From contig QWPT01000017.1 in the NCBI GenBank assembly GCA_003671075.1, positions 1 through 58,613 on the forward strand: a stretch of 58,613 nucleotides of DNA, written 5' to 3'. Below the pieces are notes generated by a model. The model was not told the DNA's origin. It saw only the letters and a program-made list of their open reading frames with translations, and searched no databases. Both the position numbers and the translations under genes were made by a program. Positions within the stretch are counted from its first letter, which is position 1, and the number at the start of each line of letters is the position of its first letter. Shown here piece after piece: positions 5,256 to 19,481 of this stretch. This DNA is from Planctomycetota bacterium. Lineage in GTDB: Bacteria > Planctomycetota > Phycisphaerae > Phycisphaerales > SM1A02.

Positions 5256-5828
5256 TCACCAAATCGTCGGCATCGGCGGCTTGCCGTAGGCGCTCTCAAA
5301 GGTGAGGCGATCGATCTTCCAGCCGTCCGCCGTGTTGCGAACGCGAATGATCCAACTCGTCGGCACGGCGCCGATTGAACGCGCGGTACTGGTTGAGCAG
5401 GAGAGTTCAACCTCGCCAGTTTTGTCGTCAATCGTGCGGAAGACGAGGCGGGTGATGCGGTTTGAGTCGATGCGGTTTTTGGCAGCCAGCGATGCGAGCG
5501 CTGACCGAATCGCTTCGATGGCGACGCCTGAGTTCTCACGGCGCCCGTAGTTCAGCACAGCGCTCGGCGTGAAGAGCTCGGCCGCCCGAAGGGTTTCCGC
5601 CTCCTCGGCCAGGATCACGAGCTCCTCGACGACGGCGCTCGCTTCCTCGCCGGCCGTGACGACGGCTCGACCGACAGCAAGGGCGGAAATCCCTAGTAAC
5701 GCAGCGATTCCAGCGATAATCAGTTCACGACCGCTGCCGCTCGAGCGCCCGCGCCAGGCGAAAAAACACGCGATTGCAACCAAGGCTACCGCGAGCGGGA
5801 TGGGGTTCTCAAAAAGCCAGACAGTCAT
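5256..5828 (-). CDS. Small membrane-anchored protein with NTF2/SnoaL-like domain
   Basis: The 190-residue protein begins with two hydrophobic segments (residues about 8-24 and 36-55) separated by a short charged loop, RGRSSGSGRE. A soluble domain follows, containing a helix rich in Glu and Ala, then strands ending SWIIRVRNTADGWKIDRLTFE. The latter pattern, W-x-I-x-V ... G-W-K-I, is typical of the last two strands of NTF2/SnoaL/DUF4440-like folds. Function is unknown. Such anchored domains are often placed at the inner membrane as binding or scaffold modules, but nothing here shows a ligand. Its start region faces the MAF gene across a divergent gap of 181 bases. Confidence 0.7.
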   Translation of the reverse strand: MTVWLFENPIPLAVALVAIACFFAWRGRSSGSGRELIIAGIAALLGISALAVGRAVVTAGEEASAVVEELVILAEEAETLRAAELFTPSAVLNYGRRENSGVAIEAIRSALASLAAKNRIDSNRITRLVFRTIDDKTGEVELSCSTSTARSIGAVPTSWIIRVRNTADGWKIDRLTFESAYGKPPMPTIW

Positions 5829-6009: not shown

Positions 6010-9000
6010 ATGGCTTCGATTCCGATCACACATCCATCCCTCAGCGCTTCCTCGGTGGGCGTGGGCGCGAACGCGAGTTCCGACGCGAGCTCGATCAGCC
6101 CCGACGACTCAACCTCAGTTCTGCTCGAGCGCAATCTCGCAGCGCTTTCGGCTCGCAATACCGACATCGTTGAGGCAATTCGTGCGGCGAAGGCGCTACC
6201 AATCGCGTCGGCGCTCGAGTGGGGTAGTGCAACCGATGGTTCGAGCGTGGCGAACTATGGCGGTCGCGCATTGGCGTCGCGTCATGCGCCGCGCGAGGAG
6301 GCGACTAACTTTGCGGACGCCGTTGATCTGCGCGAGAAGGCGGTCGTCGCGGTCCTCGGCTTTGGACTCGGCTACCACATTGCCCAACTCGGAGACCTGA
6401 TCTGTCGCACGGGGTTGCTCGTGGTGCTTGAGCCGGACATCGCACTGCTGCGCGCGGTGCTGTCCAAGGTCGATTGGAGCGAGGCATTTCAGCGCACCAA
6501 CATCCTGTTCTTCACAGGTGAAGAGCCGCTCGGCCGCTATTCGGAACGATTTGCTGGCTCAGACGGGATTCTGATTCAAGGCGTGCAGATCGTCGAGCAT
6601 CCCGCCAGCCGCGCCCGCGTGGCCTCGGTTGCAAAAGATTTCGCAAAGAACCTCACGGAAACAGTGCGCGCTGCCCGCGTGACTGCCGCGACGGCATTGG
6701 CGCGCAGCGCGCAAACCATTCGCTCGATTCTCCGCAACGCACCGCTCTATGTCGGCGGCGAAGGTCTCGCTCCGCTCGCTGGAATCGCCAAGAATCGTCT
6801 GGGCATTGTGGTGAGCGCGGGTCCGAGTCTGCGGCGAAACTTGCATCTCCTTGCCAAGCCCGGCGTGCGCGACAATTGCGTGATCATCGCAACGCAGACG
6901 GTGTTGAAGCCGCTGCTCGCCGAGGGAATTCGACCGCACTTCGTTGCTGCGCTCGACTGGCACCAGATATCTCGGCGTTTTTACGAGGGCCTTCGCGAGC
7001 AGGATGTGGCGCAAACCACGCTCATTCTTGATCCGCAGGCCAATCCCGTCATCGCAGAGAGCTATCCCGGTCCAGTACGCACAATTGCAGCGCCGCATCT
7101 CGACGCGCTGCTCGGGCCGCTCGCGCGCGAGAAGGCTGGTGACAAGGGACGCTTGCCGTCGGGCGCGACCGTCGCCCATCTTTGCTACCAAATTGCACGC
7201 TTTCTCGGCTGCAATCCTGTTGCGCTCATCGGTCAGGATCTCGGATTCACCGACGGCGTCTACTACGCGCGCGGTACGGCGATCGACGATGTGTGGGCTC
7301 CGGAACTCAACCCGTTCAACACTATCGAAAATCTCGAATGGACGCGGATCGTGCGTCACCGATCGCATCTGGTGAAGCGGCAGGATGTTCACGGAAAGTC
7401 GATTTTCAGCGACGCGCAAATGGAGACTTATCTCCAGCGTTTCGAGTACTTCTTCTTGCAGGATGAACGAAGAGGTCTCATCACCATCGACGCCACTGAG
7501 GGCGGCGTGCGTAAGGCGGGCACGGAAGTGCAGACGCTGGCGCAGGCGCTTTCAACCTACGCCACCGAGCCCATCGCCGAAATTCCGCTGGCGTCACGGG
7601 CGCGCGATGTTGAACGCATTGCGCGCGCGGCGAAGCGGCTAGGGGAGGTGCTGACCGATGTGCGGACGATCGGAACGGCTTCGAGGCGCACCGGTGACGC
7701 GATCGCGCAACTGGTCGGAGCCACAGCAAAATCGCAGCGCGACGACAAACTTTGGAAGACGGTCGAGACCGAGCGAACAAAGGTTGCCGAACGCCTCGAC
7801 ACGCTCCGACTCCTCGATGAATTCAGTCAGGTCGGTGTGCTGAAGCGCGCAAAGGCCGATCGGCGAATTGAGCACACTCGCGGCATTTCACCTGAGGAAA
7901 AGCAGGTTTTGCAGTTCGATCGCGATCTGGCCAATGTGCGTTGGTTGGAAGAGAGTTCGACCGAGTACGCCACGGTTCTCGAAGCCACGATTCGTCGCCT
8001 CAATGGAAGCGAAGTGGTGGAAGAGCCGGATGAAGCGGCGATTGCTGCCCGCGCCGACGGTGCGCTTGGTCGTGCGCTCGGCGAAGCGAGTGTCACGCGC
8101 GAGGTGCGCGCGGCATTCCTCGTGCCCGTTGATCCGTGGCATGGCGGCCTCGGCACGCCGCGAAGTCTTGGCGAATGTCTCGCAGGAAAGACAGTTATTC
8201 AATGGACACTCGAGCGACTCGGGCGGTCGCGTGAAGCAGCGTCGATCGTGTTGTTGGTGCCCGATGGGTTCGACATCGACTCGCTCATCGATCGCAGCGC
8301 GATTGGTTTGCCCATCGAAATTCATCGTTCGCAGGGAACGCCGTTTGGCCCGGAGCGCGCGGCGATTGCGGCGGCGCGTTTGTGGAGCGACAGTTCGTGG
8401 CGTGGCGGAATCGCAGGAACCACGGTGTATGACGAGGTTTTGGCACCTCGGGTGATGTACGAGGCGATGACGCGCTTGGGCGTGACCGCCGCTGTGGTGG
8501 TCGGACCAGACTGGCCGTTGGTTTGCGTGGTCGAGGATGATGGATGCGATGGGCTGATTCGCCGGCATCGCACGCAGCCTGAACTCATGCGCATCGTGTT
8601 TAACCAGTCGCCGCCCGGGCTCTGTGGATTGCTTGTCGATCGCTCGCTTATGTCGGAGCTCGCGCAAGGTGGTCGTCGTTCCTCGGTCGGATGGCTGCTC
8701 GCCTATGAGCCCACGCGTCCGCAGCAGGACCCGATCTCGAAGGACATCTGTGTTCAGATTGACCATGTTGTGCGGCAATCGCTGGTGCGCGCGGTGTTCG
8801 ATACGCCGCGCAACATGATCCGCATGCGTCGAGCGATCGAGCCCGGGCTGAGCGAGCGCGGTGGCGGCGTTGCTGGAATCGAGCCGCGTGCGGCCATTGA
8901 TTTGCTTGAGCACCAGCTGTTCGACACCGTTCCCTACTTTACGCCGCAGCATCTGATGATTGAGCTCAACACGGGACGACAGGGCTCGGGCGCTTCGAGT

Positions 9001-9786
9001 CCGCATCGCATGGGATCGGTCCAACGAGCGATGATGACGGAGCGGCGTTTCGCGCGTCTGGTTGAACAGGTCGGCGATAGCCGCGATTGCGTGATGACTT
9101 TCTGCGGCGCGGGCGATCCGCTCTTGCATCCCGATGTCGCGCGATTCGTGCGGATGGCCAAGGACGGCGGTGTTCGCGGCGTACATCTGCGCACGGAACT
9201 GCTGGCGGAACCTGCGCTGATTGAGCAGGTCATCGAAGCGGGCGCGGATGTGTTCAGCGTTGAAATCGATGCGGACTGCGGCGATACCTATCGGCGCATG
9301 CACGGAATTGATCGATACCGCGATGTGATCGCCAACATGGAACGCGTGCTCGGAATGCGACGCCATCTGTCGGGCGTGGGCGGTGCAGGCGTGTACGCGA
9401 CTCCGTGGATTGTTCCGCGACTCCAGCGACGAGTGGAGAGCTACGAGGACATCGATGGCTTCTTCGACCGATGGCAACATCTGCTCGGGACGCCAGTGAT
9501 TGAAGGGGCCGCGCCCTTCGATGCCTCACCAGAGAATCCGCCTGATCCGCTTTCGAGCGCGCGCGCGCCGACGCGTTCGATGTGGCGTGAAATGTTGCGA
9601 CGGATGCTAGTGCTTTCGGACGGAACCGTTCCAATCTCTGAGCTCGATCTGCGTGGCGACCGCATCTTCACTCATGTCGATCGTGGACCGCTGCTGCAGG
9701 CGTGGCGCGATCTTGTCGCGCGCCGCAAGCAGATTCGCCGCGAGTTCGGCGAGGCCCATCAAGATCTCAGGACACGCATCCCATGA
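6010..9786 (+). CDS. MAF (DUF115) glycosyltransferase fused to NTP-transferase-like and cysteine-less radical-SAM-like domains
   Basis: With the ATG at 6010 the protein has 1258 residues. The first 500 residues match motility-associated-factor / DUF115 proteins: a helix LERNLAALSARNTDI, a Rossmann-like LGFGLGYHIAQL, and the core GIVVSAGPSLRRNLHLL with GQDLGFTDGVYYARG. MAF proteins transfer nonulosonic acids to flagellin, so the following neuA/B/C genes fit as the donor pathway. A helical linker is followed at about residue 700 by an SpsF-like nucleotidyltransferase fold (FLVPVDPWHGGLG). From about 975 there is a radical-SAM/SPASM-like region (CGAGDPLLHPDVARFV at about 1033, LSDGTVPISELDLRGD at about 1200), but no CxxxCxxC cluster motif and no SPASM cysteines are visible. 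The stop overlaps the neuA start by four bases. An earlier in-frame ATG at 5920 cannot be excluded. Confidence 0.85.
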   Translation: MASIPITHPSLSASSVGVGANASSDASSISPDDSTSVLLERNLAALSARNTDIVEAIRAAKALPIASALEWGSATDGSSVANYGGRALASRHAPREEATNFADAVDLREKAVVAVLGFGLGYHIAQLGDLICRTGLLVVLEPDIALLRAVLSKVDWSEAFQRTNILFFTGEEPLGRYSERFAGSDGILIQGVQIVEHPASRARVASVAKDFAKNLTETVRAARVTAATALARSAQTIRSILRNAPLYVGGEGLAPLAGIAKNRLGIVVSAGPSLRRNLHLLAKPGVRDNCVIIATQTVLKPLLAEGIRPHFVAALDWHQISRRFYEGLREQDVAQTTLILDPQANPVIAESYPGPVRTIAAPHLDALLGPLAREKAGDKGRLPSGATVAHLCYQIARFLGCNPVALIGQDLGFTDGVYYARGTAIDDVWAPELNPFNTIENLEWTRIVRHRSHLVKRQDVHGKSIFSDAQMETYLQRFEYFFLQDERRGLITIDATEGGVRKAGTEVQTLAQALSTYATEPIAEIPLASRARDVERIARAAKRLGEVLTDVRTIGTASRRTGDAIAQLVGATAKSQRDDKLWKTVETERTKVAERLDTLRLLDEFSQVGVLKRAKADRRIEHTRGISPEEKQVLQFDRDLANVRWLEESSTEYATVLEATIRRLNGSEVVEEPDEAAIAARADGALGRALGEASVTREVRAAFLVPVDPWHGGLGTPRSLGECLAGKTVIQWTLERLGRSREAASIVLLVPDGFDIDSLIDRSAIGLPIEIHRSQGTPFGPERAAIAAARLWSDSSWRGGIAGTTVYDEVLAPRVMYEAMTRLGVTAAVVVGPDWPLVCVVEDDGCDGLIRRHRTQPELMRIVFNQSPPGLCGLLVDRSLMSELAQGGRRSSVGWLLAYEPTRPQQDPISKDICVQIDHVVRQSLVRAVFDTPRNMIRMRRAIEPGLSERGGGVAGIEPRAAIDLLEHQLFDTVPYFTPQHLMIELNTGRQGSGASSPHRMGSVQRAMMTERRFARLVEQVGDSRDCVMTFCGAGDPLLHPDVARFVRMAKDGGVRGVHLRTELLAEPALIEQVIEAGADVFSVEIDADCGDTYRRMHGIDRYRDVIANMERVLGMRRHLSGVGGAGVYATPWIVPRLQRRVESYEDIDGFFDRWQHLLGTPVIEGAAPFDASPENPPDPLSSARAPTRSMWREMLRRMLVLSDGTVPISELDLRGDRIFTHVDRGPLLQAWRDLVARRKQIRREFGEAHQDLRTRIP

Positions 9787-10514
9787 CCGCGCCGAACAAC
9801 GCCAAGACCAACGACCACGTGCTCGCCGTCGTGATTGGTCGCGCAGGAAGCAAGGGACTTCCGCGCAAAAATGCGCTTGACATTGCTGGCGTGCCAATGA
9901 TCGCGCACACGATTCGTTTCGCGCGGGCGTCCCGTCGTATCGAACGCGTGATTGTTTCGACCGATGGCGATGAGATCGCACGCATCGCACGCTCAGAAGG
10001 CGTGGATGTTCATATGCGTCCAGAACAGTTGTCCAACGACAGTGCCACCGTCGACAGTGCAGTGCGCCATGCGGTCGACGCGAGCGCGTCGCCGGCGGGA
10101 ATCATCGTGATTCTTTATGGCAATGTGCCGGTGCGCCCCGCGGACCTTGCCGATCGCGCCATCGCGCGCCTCGTTGAAACGGGCGCTGACAGCGTGCAAA
10201 GTTACTACCGAGTGGGGAAGACCCATCCGTTCTGGATGTCCCGTCTTGACGAGTCGGGAAAGGTGACGCAGTTTGTTGAGAACCGCATCTACCGCAGGCA
10301 AGAACTTCCGCCCCTCTTCATGCCCGATGGTGGCGTAATCGCCGTTCGTCGCGCAAGTTTGTTCGATGTGTGCGAAGGCGAGCCGCATAAATTTTTTGGC
10401 AGCGATCGACGCGGAATTGAAACACGCGAGGGTGATGTGATCGACATCGATACCGCGTTGGACATGGCGGTTGCCGAGGCGATTCTTCTTGCACGCACGG
10501 AGGTACACGCATGA
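9783..10514 (+). CDS. neuA: CMP-nonulosonic acid (N-acylneuraminate) cytidylyltransferase
   Basis: The 243-residue protein shows the hallmarks of CMP-sialic acid synthetases: the nucleotide-binding start VIGRAGSKGLPRKNALDIAG, STDGDEIARIA, the acceptor-sugar region RIYRRQELPPLFMPDGGVIA, and the late acidic IDIDTALD motif that binds magnesium. It would activate the nonulosonic acid with CTP to the CMP-sugar used by the glycosyltransferase. The start ATG overlaps the MAF stop (ATGA) and its own stop overlaps the neuB start, which indicates translational coupling. Whether the substrate is Neu5Ac, legionaminate or pseudaminate cannot be decided from sequence alone, so the symbol is used in the general sense. 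Confidence 0.88.
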   Translation: MTAPNNAKTNDHVLAVVIGRAGSKGLPRKNALDIAGVPMIAHTIRFARASRRIERVIVSTDGDEIARIARSEGVDVHMRPEQLSNDSATVDSAVRHAVDASASPAGIIVILYGNVPVRPADLADRAIARLVETGADSVQSYYRVGKTHPFWMSRLDESGKVTQFVENRIYRRQELPPLFMPDGGVIAVRRASLFDVCEGEPHKFFGSDRRGIETREGDVIDIDTALDMAVAEAILLARTEVHA

Positions 10515-11584
10515 GCCAGTCGTCGATCAGGCTTGGTGGAAGAGTCGTTGCAGCGGGCGCGGATCCGTTCGTCATCGCCGAAATTGGCGTGAATCACGAT
10601 GGAAGCATTGATCGTGCGCGCGAGCTTGTGCTCGCGGCGAAGGCGGCAGGAGCGGACGCTGCCAAGTTTCAGATGTTTGACGCGCAGATGCTGATGTCGC
10701 GTGACGCCGTGTTGGCCGTGTACCAGCGCGAGCAAGGCGCGCGCGATCCACGCGAACTATTGAAGGGGCTGCAGTTGTCACCGGGGCAACTCGGCGAACT
10801 CGCCGAGTTGTGCATCTCGATTGGCATCGCGCCGATGGTGACGGTGTTCTCGCTGCCGCTGTTTGAATTTGCGCGGACGCAGCGTTGGAGCGCGTTTAAG
10901 ACCGCATCGCCCGACATCGTGAATTTGCCGCTGTTGCGCATGGCGGGCTCGATTGGAAAGCCGCTGGTTGTTTCGACGGGCGCAGCCAACCGGAGCGAGG
11001 TCGCGCAGGCGGCTCGTTGGCTTGCGCACCTCGGCGACCTTGCGTTCCTCCAGTGCACCAGCAGCTATCCAACGGCGGACGATTGCGCTGCGATCGGTGG
11101 TATGCACGAGATTCACGCGATCAGCGGGCGAGCCGTCGGCTACAGCGATCACACTGCGGCCACCGATACCGGAGCAATCGCCGTTGCCGCGGGCGCGTGC
11201 ATCCTCGAAAAGCACCTGACCTACGACCGCACGGCCAACGGCCCCGATCACGCCGCCAGCCTCGATTGCGTGCAGTTCGCCGAGTATGTGCGCCTCGCGC
11301 GCCGCGCTGGACGCATGGTGGGCACGAGCCGCAAGGAGTTGCAGGATGTGGAGCGCGATGTGCGGATGGTCAGCCGCCAATCGCTGGTGGCGGCGCGCGA
11401 TATCGCGGCAGGGGCGTTCATTGGCCCTGCCGATCTCGCGATTAAGCGACCGGGAACAGGCATCTGCGCGAGTCGTTTCGATGAAATCGTCGGGCGCCGT
11501 GCGACGCGAGCGATCGAGGCGGATCGCGTGCTGCATGATTCCGATGTGCTGTTGCGCGAAGGCGCTCGCGAGGTCGTTCGGTGA
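10511..11584 (+). CDS. neuB: N-acetylneuraminate (or legionaminate) synthase
   Basis: This 357-residue protein carries the NeuB TIM barrel: FVIAEIGVNHDGS near the N-terminus, AAKFQMF, the ECTSSYPT-type element (here QCTSSYPT), GYSDHT, and EKHLTYDRTANGPDH with the conserved acidic and His residues. A C-terminal SAF (antifreeze-like) domain follows, from about residue 295 (SLVAARDIAAGAFI). The enzyme condenses phosphoenolpyruvate with ManNAc or a diamino analogue to make a nine-carbon acid in the cytoplasm. Length is normal. It overlaps its upstream neighbour by four bases and its downstream neighbour by four bases, so the three synthesis genes are expressed as one coupled unit with the MAF gene. 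Confidence 0.92.
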   Translation: MSQSSIRLGGRVVAAGADPFVIAEIGVNHDGSIDRARELVLAAKAAGADAAKFQMFDAQMLMSRDAVLAVYQREQGARDPRELLKGLQLSPGQLGELAELCISIGIAPMVTVFSLPLFEFARTQRWSAFKTASPDIVNLPLLRMAGSIGKPLVVSTGAANRSEVAQAARWLAHLGDLAFLQCTSSYPTADDCAAIGGMHEIHAISGRAVGYSDHTAATDTGAIAVAAGACILEKHLTYDRTANGPDHAASLDCVQFAEYVRLARRAGRMVGTSRKELQDVERDVRMVSRQSLVAARDIAAGAFIGPADLAIKRPGTGICASRFDEIVGRRATRAIEADRVLHDSDVLLREGAREVVR

Positions 11585-12693
11585 GGCGCATCGCAGTCGT
11601 CACTGGAACGCGGGCGGAGTGGGGGCTGCTTCGTCCAGTTTGTGAGGCGATTGGTGCAGAGCGCGCGCTTTCATTGCATGTTGTTGCTGGCGGTGCGCAC
11701 ATGCTCGCGCCAGCGCGGACCATCGACGAGGTTCGCGCGTTCGCGCCTGGACTCAGCGAATTTTCGATGCAGGTTGCCGGCGAGTTTGGCCGCAGCGCCG
11801 ATGCGCGGGCGCTCGGACGGGGAATCGTCGCGCTGTCGGACATCTTTTCAACGCTCGCACCGGATGTCGTTGTCGTGCTCGGTGATCGCATCGAAGCGTT
11901 TGCGGCGGCGAGCGCAGCGGCGGTCGGCGGAATGCGCGTGGCGCACATTCATGGCGGCGATCGCGCGGAAGGCGTGGCTGACGAGTCGATGCGTCATGCG
12001 ATCACCAAGCTTGCGCACATCCACTTTCCCGCTTCGGCCGAGAGCGCGCAACGCATCCTCGCACTCGGAGAACAGGCTGCCACTGTGCATTTCGTTGGTT
12101 CGCCTTCCATCGATGGTCTCGACGCGATCAGTCCCATCGACGACGAGCGCTACCGCGACCTTGGCTCACCAGAGTTTGTGTTTCTGATGCATCCGTGCGC
12201 GCGCGGCGACGAGATTGAGCACTCCGACGCCGCGGCGATTCTTGACGCAGCGACTGCGCGCGGTCGCGTGCTGGCGTTATCGCCGAACAGTGACCCTGGT
12301 CGGGTGGGAATTGTCCGCGCCATTGCCGAGCGTTGCGATCGCCTGCGCATTGCCGAGCATCTTCCCCGTGCGCAATTCGTGGCGTTACTCAAGCGTCCGG
12401 AGATTCGCGCGTTGGTTGGGAATTCAAGCGCGGGCATCATCGAAGCTTCGGCGCTGGGAACGCGCGTGATCGACATCGGTCGGCGTCAGCGTGGACGCGA
12501 GCGCGCAACGGCGGTGGTCGGATGCGCCGTCGCCGAACCAACTGCACTTGACGAGGCTTTCTCGGCACTTGATTTCGTCCCCGATCATGCGACCCACCCG
12601 TATGGTGATGGCGGCGCCAGTGCGCGCATTGCCCGACAACTCGCCGAATTCGACGAGTCGCGACATCCGTTGGCAAAGCTCAACGCCTTCTGA
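11581..12693 (+). CDS. neuC: UDP-GlcNAc (or UDP-diNAcBac) 2-epimerase, hydrolysing
   Basis: A GTG start overlapping the neuB stop (GTGA) gives 370 residues. The protein begins RRIAVVTGTRAEWGLLRPV, the NeuC-type N-terminus, and contains VVVLGDRIEAFAAA, HIHGGDRAEG followed by ADESMRHAITKLAH, PNSDPG and GNSSAGIIEAS. These are the UDP-sugar-binding elements of hydrolysing 2-epimerases (GT-B fold). It would release UDP and a ManNAc-type sugar, the substrate for NeuB. Together NeuC, NeuB and NeuA would form a complete route from UDP-HexNAc to a CMP-nonulosonic acid. The homologous LegG enzyme uses UDP-N,N'-diacetylbacillosamine, and the sequence cannot separate the two. No genes for making diacetylbacillosamine are seen in this window. 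Confidence 0.9.
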   Translation: MRRIAVVTGTRAEWGLLRPVCEAIGAERALSLHVVAGGAHMLAPARTIDEVRAFAPGLSEFSMQVAGEFGRSADARALGRGIVALSDIFSTLAPDVVVVLGDRIEAFAAASAAAVGGMRVAHIHGGDRAEGVADESMRHAITKLAHIHFPASAESAQRILALGEQAATVHFVGSPSIDGLDAISPIDDERYRDLGSPEFVFLMHPCARGDEIEHSDAAAILDAATARGRVLALSPNSDPGRVGIVRAIAERCDRLRIAEHLPRAQFVALLKRPEIRALVGNSSAGIIEASALGTRVIDIGRRQRGRERATAVVGCAVAEPTALDEAFSALDFVPDHATHPYGDGGASARIARQLAEFDESRHPLAKLNAF

Positions 12694-12886
12694 TCACCGC
12701 CGTCGGCACGGTTTCATCTGTGCAGGCAGGTCCAGATATTGCAGAGGTGATGACCGTGGAATTGCGCTGCCTTGCGCCTTCTGTGGGCGCCGCGTCAATC
12801 ACGCCCACGATTTGTCCGATCAAACCCTCGGCTTTCCACCTTGCGGCAAGGATCGGAAGAGCACTTTCGCAGGAAGGAACTCGCAG

Positions 12887-13783
12887 GTGACCATGATGCA
12901 AGCTCAGTCATATGACGCACACATGCTGGTAGCGCATGCGGCCGTGAAACAGCTCAGCCACATTGCCACTTTGCCCGAGGTCACTCTGGGCATCATCGAG
13001 CTCGTGGAGAATCCGAACTCGAGCGCGCACGATCTGAATCAGCTGATTGGCCGGGATCCCGCGCTTTCGGCGCGCATTCTCAAGGTCGTGAACAGCGCGT
13101 TCTACGGTCTTCCACGACAAATCGGATCGATCAATCGCGCGATCTCGATGCTGGGCCTCAACGCCGTCAAGAACATTGCGATCGCCGCCAGTCTCGCCAA
13201 ACTGTTTCGTGGCGGCGCGCTTTGCGACCGTTTCGATGCCAAGGAACTTTGGGATCACTCGATTGCCGTGGCAACCGCGGCGCGCTTGCTCGCCAAAGAA
13301 GCCCGCATGAGTTCGGGCGATGAAGCGTTTCTCGGTGGGCTTATGCATGACATCGGCATCATGGTTGCGCTGCAGTCCGACCGCGCCAAGTTGGTGCAGG
13401 TGTTCAGCGACATGCAGTTTGATGGCAACGGTAAACCGCTGATCGACTTTCGCATGGCGGAGCGCGCGGTTTACGGCGCCGACCACTGCCACTTCGGCGA
13501 GGCGCTTTGTGAGCAGTGGAAATTCCCGCGTTCGCTGGCACTCTCCTGTGGTCATCACCACGATCCGCTCTGTGCACCCGCTGAATCGCGGCAGATCCCC
13601 TGGCTTATCTTCGTCGCCGAGCGTCTGGCGACCGAGGGCGGTGGTTTCGCCATCGACATTCTTGACCGATCGATTCCGCGCGAAGCCCTTGAATCACTGG
13701 GAATCGGCGCTCCGCAACTCGATGCGGTGCGCTCGCAACTGGCTGAAAAGCTCGCCGAGGCTCAGGCCACTCTTTCGGTGTAA
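12887..13783 (+). CDS. HDOD-domain protein
   Basis: The protein of 298 residues consists mainly of an HDOD domain: SHIATLPEVTLGIIELVENPNSS, LIGRDPALSARILKVVNSAFYG, INRAISMLGLNAVKNI and the later GLMHDIGIM. HDOD proteins are non-enzymatic relatives of HD phosphohydrolases, used in signalling that often involves cyclic di-GMP or motility. The GTG at 12887 is preceded by AGGAAGG at a nine-base gap; an ATG two codons later is the alternative. It stands alone after neuC with 193 bases between them that hold no recognisable gene. A link with the surface glycosylation or motility cassette next door is only suggested by position. Confidence 0.85.
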   Translation: MTMMQAQSYDAHMLVAHAAVKQLSHIATLPEVTLGIIELVENPNSSAHDLNQLIGRDPALSARILKVVNSAFYGLPRQIGSINRAISMLGLNAVKNIAIAASLAKLFRGGALCDRFDAKELWDHSIAVATAARLLAKEARMSSGDEAFLGGLMHDIGIMVALQSDRAKLVQVFSDMQFDGNGKPLIDFRMAERAVYGADHCHFGEALCEQWKFPRSLALSCGHHHDPLCAPAESRQIPWLIFVAERLATEGGGFAIDILDRSIPREALESLGIGAPQLDAVRSQLAEKLAEAQATLSV

Positions 13784-17539: not shown

Positions 17540-18121
17540 ATGGGTGCAGGTCCTTTAGTCATTCTGATCGGTGCATGTGGTGGGCTCCTTCTTCTTGGTG
17601 TCATCGTCGCTTTGTGGGCGGTGGGGATCTACAACTCGCTCGCACGTGGGCGCGTCGGCGTGCGGGGTGCTTGGAGCGACATTGATGTGCAGCTCAAGCG
17701 CCGCCACGACCTGATTCCAAATCTCGTGGAGACCGTCAAGGGCTACGCGAAGCACGAACGCGAGACGCTCGAAGCGGTGATCGCTGCGCGCGCGCGTGCG
17801 GTGAGCGCGGGCTCGATCAGCGAGAAAGTTGCTGCGGAAGGCGGATTGACCCAGGCGCTCGGCAGGCTCATGGCCATTGCGGAGGCGTATCCCGACCTGA
17901 AGGCCAACACCAACTTCATGCAGTTGCAGGGAGAATTGGCTACGACAGAGAACATCATCAGCAACGCGCGCGGGGGATACAACGGCGCGGCTGGCGGCTA
18001 CAACCAGACGCTGGTGGTGTTTCCCACCAACATCGTCGCGGGCATGTTCGGCTTTAAGCAGGAGCCGTTCTTTGAGCTTGATAGCCCCGCGGAGCGGGTT
18101 GCGCCGCAGGTGAAGTTCTAG
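17540..18121 (+). CDS. LemA-family protein (first copy)
   Basis: The 193-residue protein has one N-terminal membrane segment (about residues 6-30), then the LemA signature YNSLARGRVGVRGAWSDIDVQLKRRHDLIPNLVETVKGYAKHE and the late YNQTLVVFPTNIVAGMFGFKQEPFFE. The family is a membrane-anchored helical bundle facing the outside of the inner membrane; its molecular role is not known. A good ribosome-binding site (AAAGGAAAG) lies 12 bases before the ATG. It is the first gene of a three-gene operon: a DUF3137-like protein starts 2 bases after its stop, and a second LemA gene follows. The two LemA proteins share the core but clearly differ, so the duplication is not recent. Confidence 0.93.
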   Translation: MGAGPLVILIGACGGLLLLGVIVALWAVGIYNSLARGRVGVRGAWSDIDVQLKRRHDLIPNLVETVKGYAKHERETLEAVIAARARAVSAGSISEKVAAEGGLTQALGRLMAIAEAYPDLKANTNFMQLQGELATTENIISNARGGYNGAAGGYNQTLVVFPTNIVAGMFGFKQEPFFELDSPAERVAPQVKF

Positions 18122-18123
18122 CG

Positions 18124-18900
18124 GTGACCACGGAGTTCAGTGGCATAACGGCGGTGCTCGCGCTGATCGGCGTGATCGCGTTCGTGATCCTCGTGGTCGT
18201 GGCAGTCGCGATCGGCGCACGCAAAGAGCGGGAGCGAACGGCGGCGTTGCGTGCGCGCGCGGCGGAGCTCGGTCTGCGATTCGTCGAACTTGACCCCGGG
18301 CTTGCTAAGAAAATGGCTCGATTTCCGCCGTTTTGCGTCGGTCATTCTCGACGGGGCATGAATCTCATCGAGGGGCAATTCGTCGCGGGTGGTCTTCGGA
18401 TGTCGTTAATTTTTGGCGACTACCAATACAAGGTGACCACTTCAAACGGGAAGTCGACGACGACAGCGACCTTCAACATGTCGTTCATATCCGTCGTTCC
18501 CGTGCTCGCCATCAACGAGGAACTGACGGTGCGCGAGGAAGGGTTCTTCGACAAGATCGGCCAGTTCATCGGTTTCGACGACATCGATTTCGAGTCGAGT
18601 GATTTTTCAAAACGGTTTCATGTGAAGTGTTCCGATCGGCGCTTTGCCTTCGATCTTTTCGATCCACGCATGATCGAATACTTCCTTGCCGCGCAGCCTC
18701 CGCGCATCCACGCCCGCGATGGGCGTTTGCTGTTTGATCGCGGAGTGCAACGATGGAAAATCGAGGAATTCACGGCGAACCTCGCGTGGATGGATGGTTT
18801 TTTCGCCCGAGTGCCGCGCCATGTACGCGCGGCCAGGCTTGCGCAGTCGGACCACGCGGCGGACCCAGTCCTTCATCCAACCAGCGGAGATTTGCAGTGA
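18124..18900 (+). CDS. DUF3137-like membrane protein
   Basis: A GTG at 18124 gives a 258-residue protein with one strong N-terminal membrane segment (ALIGVIAFVILVVVAVAIGA). The soluble part contains GLRFVELDPGLAKKM, a region with many strands, and DFESSDFSKRFHVKCSDRRFAFDLFDPRMIEYFL. The last block is the typical E-S-x-x-F-x-x-x-F-x-V-x-x-x-D pattern of DUF3137 and related LemA-neighbour proteins. Its function is unknown; families of this type are repeatedly found beside LemA. It ends by overlapping the start of the second LemA gene (GTGA), so it is translated together with it. Membership in DUF3137 proper was not checked. Confidence 0.75.
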   Translation: MTTEFSGITAVLALIGVIAFVILVVVAVAIGARKERERTAALRARAAELGLRFVELDPGLAKKMARFPPFCVGHSRRGMNLIEGQFVAGGLRMSLIFGDYQYKVTTSNGKSTTTATFNMSFISVVPVLAINEELTVREEGFFDKIGQFIGFDDIDFESSDFSKRFHVKCSDRRFAFDLFDPRMIEYFLAAQPPRIHARDGRLLFDRGVQRWKIEEFTANLAWMDGFFARVPRHVRAARLAQSDHAADPVLHPTSGDLQ

Positions 18901-19481
18901 ATGAGGCCATCCAAGGCGGCGCCGGTGTGGCTTGTTGCGTGATTGCCGTCATGGCGGCAATTCCGCTTCTCTGGCTCATCGCGACCTACAACCGCTTTGC
19001 GCGGCTCGGTCAGTTGGTCAAGGAGTCGTGGTCTGGTGTGGATGTCGAGTTGAAGCGCCGCCATTCGCTCGTGCCGAATCTCGTTGAAACGGTGAAGGGA
19101 TACGCCCAGCATGAGCGCGAGGCGCTTGAGATGGTCATCACGGCGCGCGCGAAGGCCATGGATGCGGGCGACATATTGCGCGAGCGCGTTGACGGCGAGG
19201 CAGATCTTGGACGGTCGCTCGGGCGATTGATCGCGGTTGCGGAGCGATATCCTCAGTTGAAGGCAGACCGCGGATTTCTCGAGTTGCAGCGCGAACTCTC
19301 GCTCACCGAGGATCGCATCGCCGCAAGTCGGCGCTTCTACAACGCGAATGTCCGCGAAGTCAACGCGTTGCGCATCGAGTTCCCATCGAACCTCGTCGCA
19401 GGTGTATTCGGCTTTGGTGAGGAACGCTTCTTCGAGCTCGAAGATGCGTCGGAGCGCGCTGCGCCGCAGGTGAAGATCTAG
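18897..19481 (+). CDS. LemA-family protein (second copy)
   Basis: A GTG overlapping the previous stop gives 194 residues. There is an N-terminal membrane segment (about 8-28), followed by YNRFARLGQLVKESWSGVDVELKRRHSLVPNLVETVKGYAQHE and EFPSNLVAGVFGFGEERFFELEDASERAAPQVKI. The last part is nearly the same as the end of the first copy (ERVAPQVKF). The upstream frame is open to 18753 but that stretch overlaps the DUF3137-like gene and is not coding. The three-gene arrangement LemA / DUF3137-like / LemA, with all genes touching, suggests a hetero-oligomeric membrane assembly. RuvB follows 15 bases downstream and may be in the same transcript. Confidence 0.92.
   Translation: MNEAIQGGAGVACCVIAVMAAIPLLWLIATYNRFARLGQLVKESWSGVDVELKRRHSLVPNLVETVKGYAQHEREALEMVITARAKAMDAGDILRERVDGEADLGRSLGRLIAVAERYPQLKADRGFLELQRELSLTEDRIAASRRFYNANVREVNALRIEFPSNLVAGVFGFGEERFFELEDASERAAPQVKI

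Follow-up and report, generated by a model that had tools for sequence, protein, structure and literature searches.

Two flagellin glycosylation systems offer a comparison for the gene discussed here. FlmG of Caulobacter is a modular flagellin glycosyltransferase, put forward as a new class in which an N-terminal flagellin-binding domain gives specificity (PMC7591256), and A. caviae Maf1 binds flagellin directly, Maf acting in the cytoplasm, according to PMC4065374. Our gene lies in a 58,613-nucleotide stretch of DNA (the window; contig QWPT01000017.1 of assembly GCA_003671075.1, from a planctomycete of the class Phycisphaerae, order Phycisphaerales) and joins a MAF-type flagellin transferase to a C-terminal tail of 557 residues, in which an SpsF-like nucleotidyltransferase fold precedes a radical S-adenosylmethionine (SAM) barrel. 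We propose, with a probability of about one half, that this tail has been repurposed into a non-redox module that partners the MAF flagellin transferase and handles donor or acceptor in O-glycosylation, because it combines the SpsF-like and radical-SAM/Twitch folds with lost signatures, is co-encoded and co-occurs with MAF, and is under purifying selection. By description the gene product resembles FlmG, also a modular flagellin glycosyltransferase with a separate specificity domain; that domain is N-terminal in FlmG, whereas the tail of the window protein is C-terminal.

The closest known family of the module itself is, by sequence comparison, the NCBI family 'spiro-SPASM' (TIGR04321), to which we return below. 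To our knowledge, radical-SAM pseudoenzymes have hardly been described, and MAF transferases of other phyla manage, as far as we know, without such a partner. The listed titles and abstract openings of open-licence literature yielded no radical-SAM pseudoenzyme with this role and no description of the module. TIGR04347, known to us by its name of pseudo-SAM/SPASM alone, would by that name be radical-SAM-like without radical-SAM activity; its profile matches weakly (14.1 bits for the window protein, 29-32 bits for L126, a copy of the module encoded by a separate gene) and it is not close by score. T. pallidum TPASS_0285 is listed as 'SPASM' in PMC4403809.

The gene (6010-9786, forward strand, stop included) is one uninterrupted reading frame with a coding part at 6010-9783 and a product, P0001, of 1258 amino acids that matches nothing but itself in the 3.35-Mb assembly. 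Near-full-length open copies, 67-82% identical, were found in 11 of the 15 congener genomes searched; the copy was in pieces at contig ends in three others and one (G005) gave no match. The gene is laid out as follows:

6010-8049, forward strand: MAF-type flagellin nonulosonic-acid transferase region (residues 1-680; PF01973 with weak Maf_flag10_N, PseD and 5mu5 matches)
6730-7254, forward strand: MptE-like core of MAF (PF01973, residues 241-415)
8113-8904, forward strand: predicted SpsF-like nucleotidyltransferase fold without the nucleoside triphosphate (NTP)-binding loop (residues 702-965; AlphaFold2 model, 6oew match, loop patterns)
8932-9567, forward strand: predicted radical-SAM-fold barrel without cluster ligands (residues 975-1186; Pfam, AlphaFold2 model, fold matches, cysteine patterns)
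8977-9000, forward strand: former CxxxCxxC site, R990, G994 and S997, spacing unchanged (family alignment, BtrN profile alignment)
9106-9120, forward strand: retained G-x-G-D-P motif, counterpart of GGE (residues 1033-1037)
9568-9783, forward strand: SPASM/Twitch-type tail, its four cysteine positions now W, S, L and R (residues 1187-1258; alignment)

The MAF region is recognised mainly by its core: residues 241-415 match the MptE-like domain PF01973 at 5.4e-33 and 114.6 bits (Pfam cut-off 34.6). The label 'MAF-type' rests on this domain and on the neighbouring genes, because the Maf N-terminal domain PF20157 (Maf_flag10_N) reaches 20.9 bits, below its cut-off of 23.5. The NCBIfam PseD profile covers residues 136-590 with 45 bits against a cut-off of 670, and 5mu5 matches weakly (E 0.015). 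Thus P0001 resembles the MAF/PseD flagellin glycosyltransferases in its PF01973 match and in the adjoining NeuA, NeuB and NeuC genes, and departs from them in its tail and its low PseD score.

The original prediction, made from the letters alone, had read a radical-SAM/SPASM shape into the C-terminal 280 residues. This is borne out by Pfam (PF04055, residues 1008-1113, 1.8e-7, 31.9 bits, barely above the cut-off of 29.5), by the predicted fold and by the motifs it quoted, C-G-A-G-D-P-L-L-H-P starting at residue 1032 and V-L-S-D-G-T-V-P-I-S-E-L-D-L-R-G-D near 1200. AlphaFold2, run with 58 homologues on residues 702-1258 (numbered in the model with an offset of 701), gave a predicted local distance difference test score (pLDDT) of 93.1 and a predicted template modelling score (pTM) of 0.92. 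With VIA-align, the barrel half of this predicted model matched MoaA (2fb2) with Z 20.8, a root-mean-square deviation (rmsd) of 3.0 and 243 aligned residues, followed by SuiB (Z 20.8), BlsE (Z 20.1) and BtrN (4m7t, Z 19.0), so that the fold comparison proposed at the outset returned MoaA/BtrN-type matches at Z 19-21; the best matches include the peptide-modifying enzymes SuiB, SkfB and ChlB. For the nucleotidyltransferase half the best match listed was the Leptospira SpsF-like cytidylyltransferase 6oew (Z 19.5, rmsd 2.8, 216 aligned), cytidine monophosphate (CMP)-3-deoxy-D-manno-octulosonate synthetases scoring Z 14.6 and lower, and the predicted model of another separate copy, L197, gave 6oew at Z 22.7 and BtrN at Z 22.4. 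Such lists speak for the fold only, among the matches listed, and the fold says nothing of function. The model thus predicts the partial TIM-barrel fold of the radical SAM superfamily for the barrel and the SpsF/CTP_transf_3 fold for the nucleotidyltransferase half, while up to E 10 the Pfam CTP_transf_3 profile found no match in the window module. Pfam, the AlphaFold2 model and the 6oew match agree on the proposed architecture, a radical-SAM scaffold without ligands joined to an SpsF-like domain and a MAF transferase.

Homologues of the module were gathered as 170 matching open reading frames (ORFs), 160 of them spanning the barrel; 129 distinct sequences were kept, near-copies from one genus still among them, and the family comprises 128 rows without the control L149, an ordinary radical-SAM protein that came in via the TIGR04321 search. 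In P0001 the loop of the catalytic [4Fe-4S] cluster reads E985-L-N-T-G-R990-Q-G-S-G994-A-S-S997-P, and in the family profile alignment R, G and S face the CxxxCxxC cysteines of BtrN (4m7t), the next proline being kept. The 12 cysteines of P0001 (132, 290, 392, 401, 723, 839, 846, 872, 914, 1027, 1032 and 1090) form none of the patterns sought (CxxC, CxxxC and Cx2-4Cx2-3C), therefore no shifted cluster was overlooked in the window, and the predicted absence of Fe-S cysteines at the expected site stands. It extends to the whole family: none of the 128 distinct members has a cysteine at any of the three core positions, so that the loss, which the original prediction had proposed to follow through an alignment of homologues, is old and not local. 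Neither the window protein nor the family has the catalytic-cluster CxxxCxxC of radical SAM enzymes. A shifted cluster in homologues was considered and rejected, the loop segment of the 129 aligned rows containing CxxxCxxC only in L149. That the protein is a cryptic radical-SAM enzyme, its cluster held by non-cysteine or distant ligands, seems to us extremely improbable. G-x-G-D and T1062 of the barrel are retained, and 17 other family rows have at least two cysteines near the loop, but these are out of register, the ligand positions are variable (most frequently R, D or P at the first, G, P or T at the second and S, R or T at the third) and P0001 has no three-cysteine pattern; moreover, the control has a serine at position 1085, where 64 of the 68 fused rows have D or E and the separate rows most often R (23/50).

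Other parts of the active site have been kept or changed. The GGE-type motif after strand 2 is present as G-x-G-D-P, its G1035 being found in 67/68 fused rows and in all 50 of the separate rows whose locus contains a MAF ORF, and T1062 is retained. The first former ligand position is an arginine in 99 of 129 rows, control included, and the 68 fused rows have R990 in 64, R1061 in 67, D/E1063 in 63 and R1137 in 64. In the DSSP assignment of the model the conserved charged residues lie at or near the C-terminal strand ends, R1137 inside a strand, and R990, R1061, D/E1063, D/E1085 and R1137 may thus point towards the active-site face. With conserved charged residues at former active-site positions, the pocket of the fused clade looks refurnished rather than eroded.

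The auxiliary cysteines had a different fate. In the separate form of the module, a protein of about 550 amino acids, the tail cysteines coincide with those of BtrN: L197 has C-x17-C...CxxC, a spacing read from its sequence, and L137 aligns with BtrN at identical spacing; the BtrN cysteines bind its auxiliary cluster. The four Twitch cysteines of the separate form probably ligate a structural Fe-S cluster (or some other metal). Pfam SPASM (PF13186) was above cut-off in all seven separate copies scanned, whereas in the window module it had no match up to E 10; the auxiliary-cluster cysteines of SPASM/Twitch proteins are absent from the window protein. All four Twitch cysteines are present in 46/60 separate rows (five more have three) against 1/68 fused rows, or in 45 and 1 when counted by spacing pattern. 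The one fused row is L145, a fusion in another class; L024, which branches low in the fused clade, has two, seven fused rows have one and 59 none. Fourteen separate rows fall short of the full set: L025, L039, L054, L203 and L218 start right at the edge of a contig and may be truncated fused genes, a frameshift interrupts L032, the tail of L116 is encoded in a different ORF, and five are the rows with three cysteines; the losses in L046 and L052, separate copies without Twitch cysteines, look real and apparently independent. The window protein therefore shares its predicted fold with BtrN and MoaA (1tv7/2fb2) and differs from them in having neither core-cluster nor Twitch ligands.

The SpsF-like half has lost its signature as well. 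The NTP-binding loop R-x-x-S-x(1-3)-L-P-x-K, needed for cytidylyltransferase catalysis, is found in 0/120 family rows covering the region, a still looser pattern matching 4/120, and both controls, 6oew and the NeuA of the window, match; 6oew, which shares the predicted fold, has the loop intact in the alignment (R-M-G-S-T-R-L-P-G-K), whereas the family lacks it. What remains is a set of positions with the same residue in at least 119 of 128 rows each: R790 (127), W797-R798-G799-G800 (R798 in 127), D808-E809 (122 and 121), P869-G870, D907 (124), R927 (124) and D931. The polar members of this set (R790, R798, D808, E809, D907, R927), with the retained G-x-G-D and T1062 of the barrel, speak for the module being a catalytic enzyme of another kind, modifying the nonulosonic acid or, once MAF has acted, attaching a further group, in either case by chemistry that needs no Fe-S cluster. 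We regard this as an unlikely alternative, if one to be taken seriously: no known catalytic motif is complete, the NTP loop and the core cysteines being missing throughout, and a NeuA gene with an intact NTP loop adjoins.

Comparison with TIGR04321 places the module more closely. The separate copy L126 matches positions 75-506 of the 510 of the profile with 159 bits; the six separate copies scanned score 95.5-159.2 bits, below the curated cut-off of 250, which was reached in 0/392 genomes of the phylum, and P0001 has 41 bits over residues 970-1234. A profile of 510 positions leaves no room for MAF, and the clade of the window differs in being fused to MAF and lacking SPASM cysteines. When the C-terminal part of L126 was used as a probe, TIGR04321 gave 146.6 bits for the native sequence, 147.2 with cysteines and 148.5 with alanines at the triad, and 120.1 without the SPASM cysteines; the radical-SAM profile TIGR04317 rose from 83.6 to 93.8 bits with CCC. 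By these three altered copies of one sequence, the TIGR04321 profile rewards the SPASM cysteines and not the core cysteines. This profile probe suggests that spirochaetes share the loss of the core cysteines. SpsF/radical-SAM fusions with cysteines in other bacteria, which had been mentioned in the original prediction, find no support here, where no spirochaete sequence was read: none of the 128 members has core cysteines and TIGR04321 is indifferent to them, yet such fusions may occur elsewhere. The module is best read, from sequences and models, as a repurposed radical-SAM protein, a MAF-coupled variant of the spiro-SPASM type.

The evolutionary history of the family also bears on whether the fusion is simply decaying. 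The cysteine-less barrel is found throughout the class, occurs in further classes of the phylum and is often encoded by a gene of its own next to MAF. The first impression of a 'dead' fusion is thus right in that a barrel without ligands is fused, and needs the correction that this is no one-off case. In an unrooted tree of 104 rows from a quick search (cluster loop and tail excluded; L145 removed by a gap filter), all 45 fused rows fall in one clade of 50 (Shimodaira-Hasegawa-like approximate likelihood ratio test, 99) and separate copies lie around it. The other five rows are four cut by contig ends and L032:864-4681, where MAF and module lie in two overlapping frames that read as a fused gene with a frameshift, real or from assembly; the label 'fused' needs two changes on the tree, one of them L032. 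In the simplest scenario the core cysteines had gone before the sampled planctomycete copies diverged, a single fusion occurred within Phycisphaerales and the Twitch cysteines were lost within the fused clade, after fusion; from its spread on this unrooted tree, the separate form would be ancestral. The association between fusion and Twitch loss rests on one fusion event (the independent-pairs test has two pairs only and no power), and the other-class fusion L145 kept all four cysteines.

Selection argues against a gene on its way out. Among seven congeners, the ratio of nonsynonymous to synonymous substitution rates (dN/dS) is 0.08-0.22 in the nucleotidyltransferase and barrel domains where dS is finite and 0.09-0.26 in MAF, rough values because dS mostly exceeds 1 (the barrel value of L005, with saturated dS, was not used); purifying selection acts on the module about as strongly as on MAF. 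A radical-SAM gene joined to MAF by accident and now decaying could account for the successive loss of core and Twitch cysteines and for the stronger erosion in some rows; it is nonetheless very improbable, given this selection, the existence of the same cysteine-less barrel as a separate gene in many genomes and the 151 of 159 genomes with both MAF and module described below. A plasmid search with the L126 protein returned 21 records, none covering 80% of L126.

The genes that follow the fusion in the window point to its donor:

9783-10514, forward strand: NeuA-type CMP-sugar cytidylyltransferase (PF02348, 2.5e-22)
10511-11584, forward strand: NeuB-type nonulosonic acid synthase (PF03102, 3.9e-58; PF08666 SAF)
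11581-12693, forward strand: NeuC-type sugar 2-epimerase (PF02350, 6.7e-57)

The ATG of the NeuA-type gene shares bases with the fusion gene's stop codon (ATGA, 9783-9786). The activated nonulosonic acid made by NeuA, NeuB and NeuC is the donor for MAF, and since the three genes stand directly 3' of the fusion gene, the neighbourhood makes and activates nonulosonic acid. From the MAF family, these neighbours and three flagellin matches in the genome, we infer that P0001 transfers nonulosonic acid to Ser/Thr of flagellin. Elsewhere in the window, an HDOD-domain protein is encoded immediately after these genes (12857-13780, forward strand; PF08668, 1.6e-54), a 190-residue ORF without a Pfam match at 0.001 lies upstream of the fusion gene on the opposite strand (5256-5828, reverse strand), and two proteins that look alike by eye from their translations, which we take to be LemA-like, are encoded nearly in tandem (17540-18121 and 18753-19481, forward strand).

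Across genomes the module follows MAF. We surveyed 298 genomes of the class, scoring the module at E below 1e-35 (of 189 matches in all, the 33 weaker ones, with E above 1e-35, were left out of the genome counts) and the MptE-like domain at E at most 1e-10. The module is present in 156 and the MptE-like domain in 154; both occur in 151, the module only in five, MAF only in three and neither in 139, so that of the 159 genomes that have at least one of the two, 151 contain the pair, in counts that ignore kinship. Flagellin is found in 153 of the 156 module genomes and also in 74 genomes without the module, hence the module follows MAF and not flagella as such. Three genomes with the module (G148, G171, G198) gave no flagellin match, two of them (G171, G198) also lacking an MptE-like match. 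Among separate loci with enough upstream flank, a MAF ORF accompanies the module in 50/53, and in 49 of these it lies upstream in the same orientation; ten separate rows lack one, seven of which are at contig edges with less than 650 bases upstream and were not counted for adjacency. For loci L116 and later with at least 3 kb downstream, NeuA, NeuB and NeuC are all present in 23/26 fused loci, and the 42 separate loci have all three in 7, some in 17 and none in 18. As the tail occurs almost only with MAF in the sampled class genomes, the module looks like an enzyme turned standing helper of flagellin glycosylation.

Another role to consider is that of a pure acceptor-recognition scaffold in which the whole tail just binds flagellin, as the N-terminal domain of FlmG does. 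The FlmG precedent (PMC7591256) and the presence of flagellin in nearly all module genomes favour it; yet conservation lies largely at the former active-site positions of both domains, which a scaffold acting by its surface only would not need, and A. caviae Maf1 itself binds flagellin directly (PMC4065374). We thus consider such a scaffold rather unlikely. The partner module that we propose would work as follows: the MAF part would transfer nonulosonic acid to flagellin in the cytoplasm, and the refurnished barrel would bind a ligand and perform no chemistry. The SpsF-like half, a sugar-nucleotide fold without NTP binding, would hold the CMP-nonulosonate from NeuA or its sugar, and the barrel would hold a flagellin segment, allowing sugar transfer by MAF; the Twitch cluster of the separate form would have become dispensable after fusion. 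The partnership of the module with MAF is the firm part of this mechanism, and the division of roles, donor for the SpsF-like half and flagellin for the barrel, is a guess.

Several observations weigh against the partner-module proposal. A PF01973 match is missing from five genomes with the module (G171, G198, G200, G211, G275), and the module from three with MAF (G199, G252, G307); L139, L141 and L144, from other classes, show no MAF ORF in the flank despite at least 2.6 kb upstream. The surveyed genomes are interrelated and several assemblies incomplete, and Fisher values overstate the MAF-module pairing because the genomes share ancestry. The sugar pathway is not always adjacent, as the 18 separate loci without any of the three Neu genes indicate, and the pairing with MAF would also fit an enzyme of other chemistry. 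At the pocket, the charged refurnishing of the active-site mouth is argued from sequence and DSSP only, R1061 and R1137 are variable in the 50 separate rows compared, and in L042, L044, L045 and L047, fused copies from another family of the order, the cluster loop and GxGD(P) motif are gone and the module is further reduced, so that the pocket is dispensable in some rows. The roughness of the dN/dS values counts on the same side.

Extended to the whole phylum, the proposal is that a radical-SAM barrel became a non-redox partner in O-glycosylation, losing the catalytic cluster first, shedding the Twitch cluster after fusion to MAF and acquiring a new charged site; we put this forward tentatively, as a possibility a little short of probable. 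If true, the auxiliary cluster of a radical-SAM family would have persisted longer than its catalytic cluster, and MAF would have an obligate partner here. With 128 distinct copies the order of the losses is legible from the tree, and in one class the tie to MAF is near one-to-one. The NCBI name of the spiro-SPASM family is silent on function, and flagellin glycosylation is now a candidate place for it; it also becomes a question why these bacteria should need a partner for their MAF.

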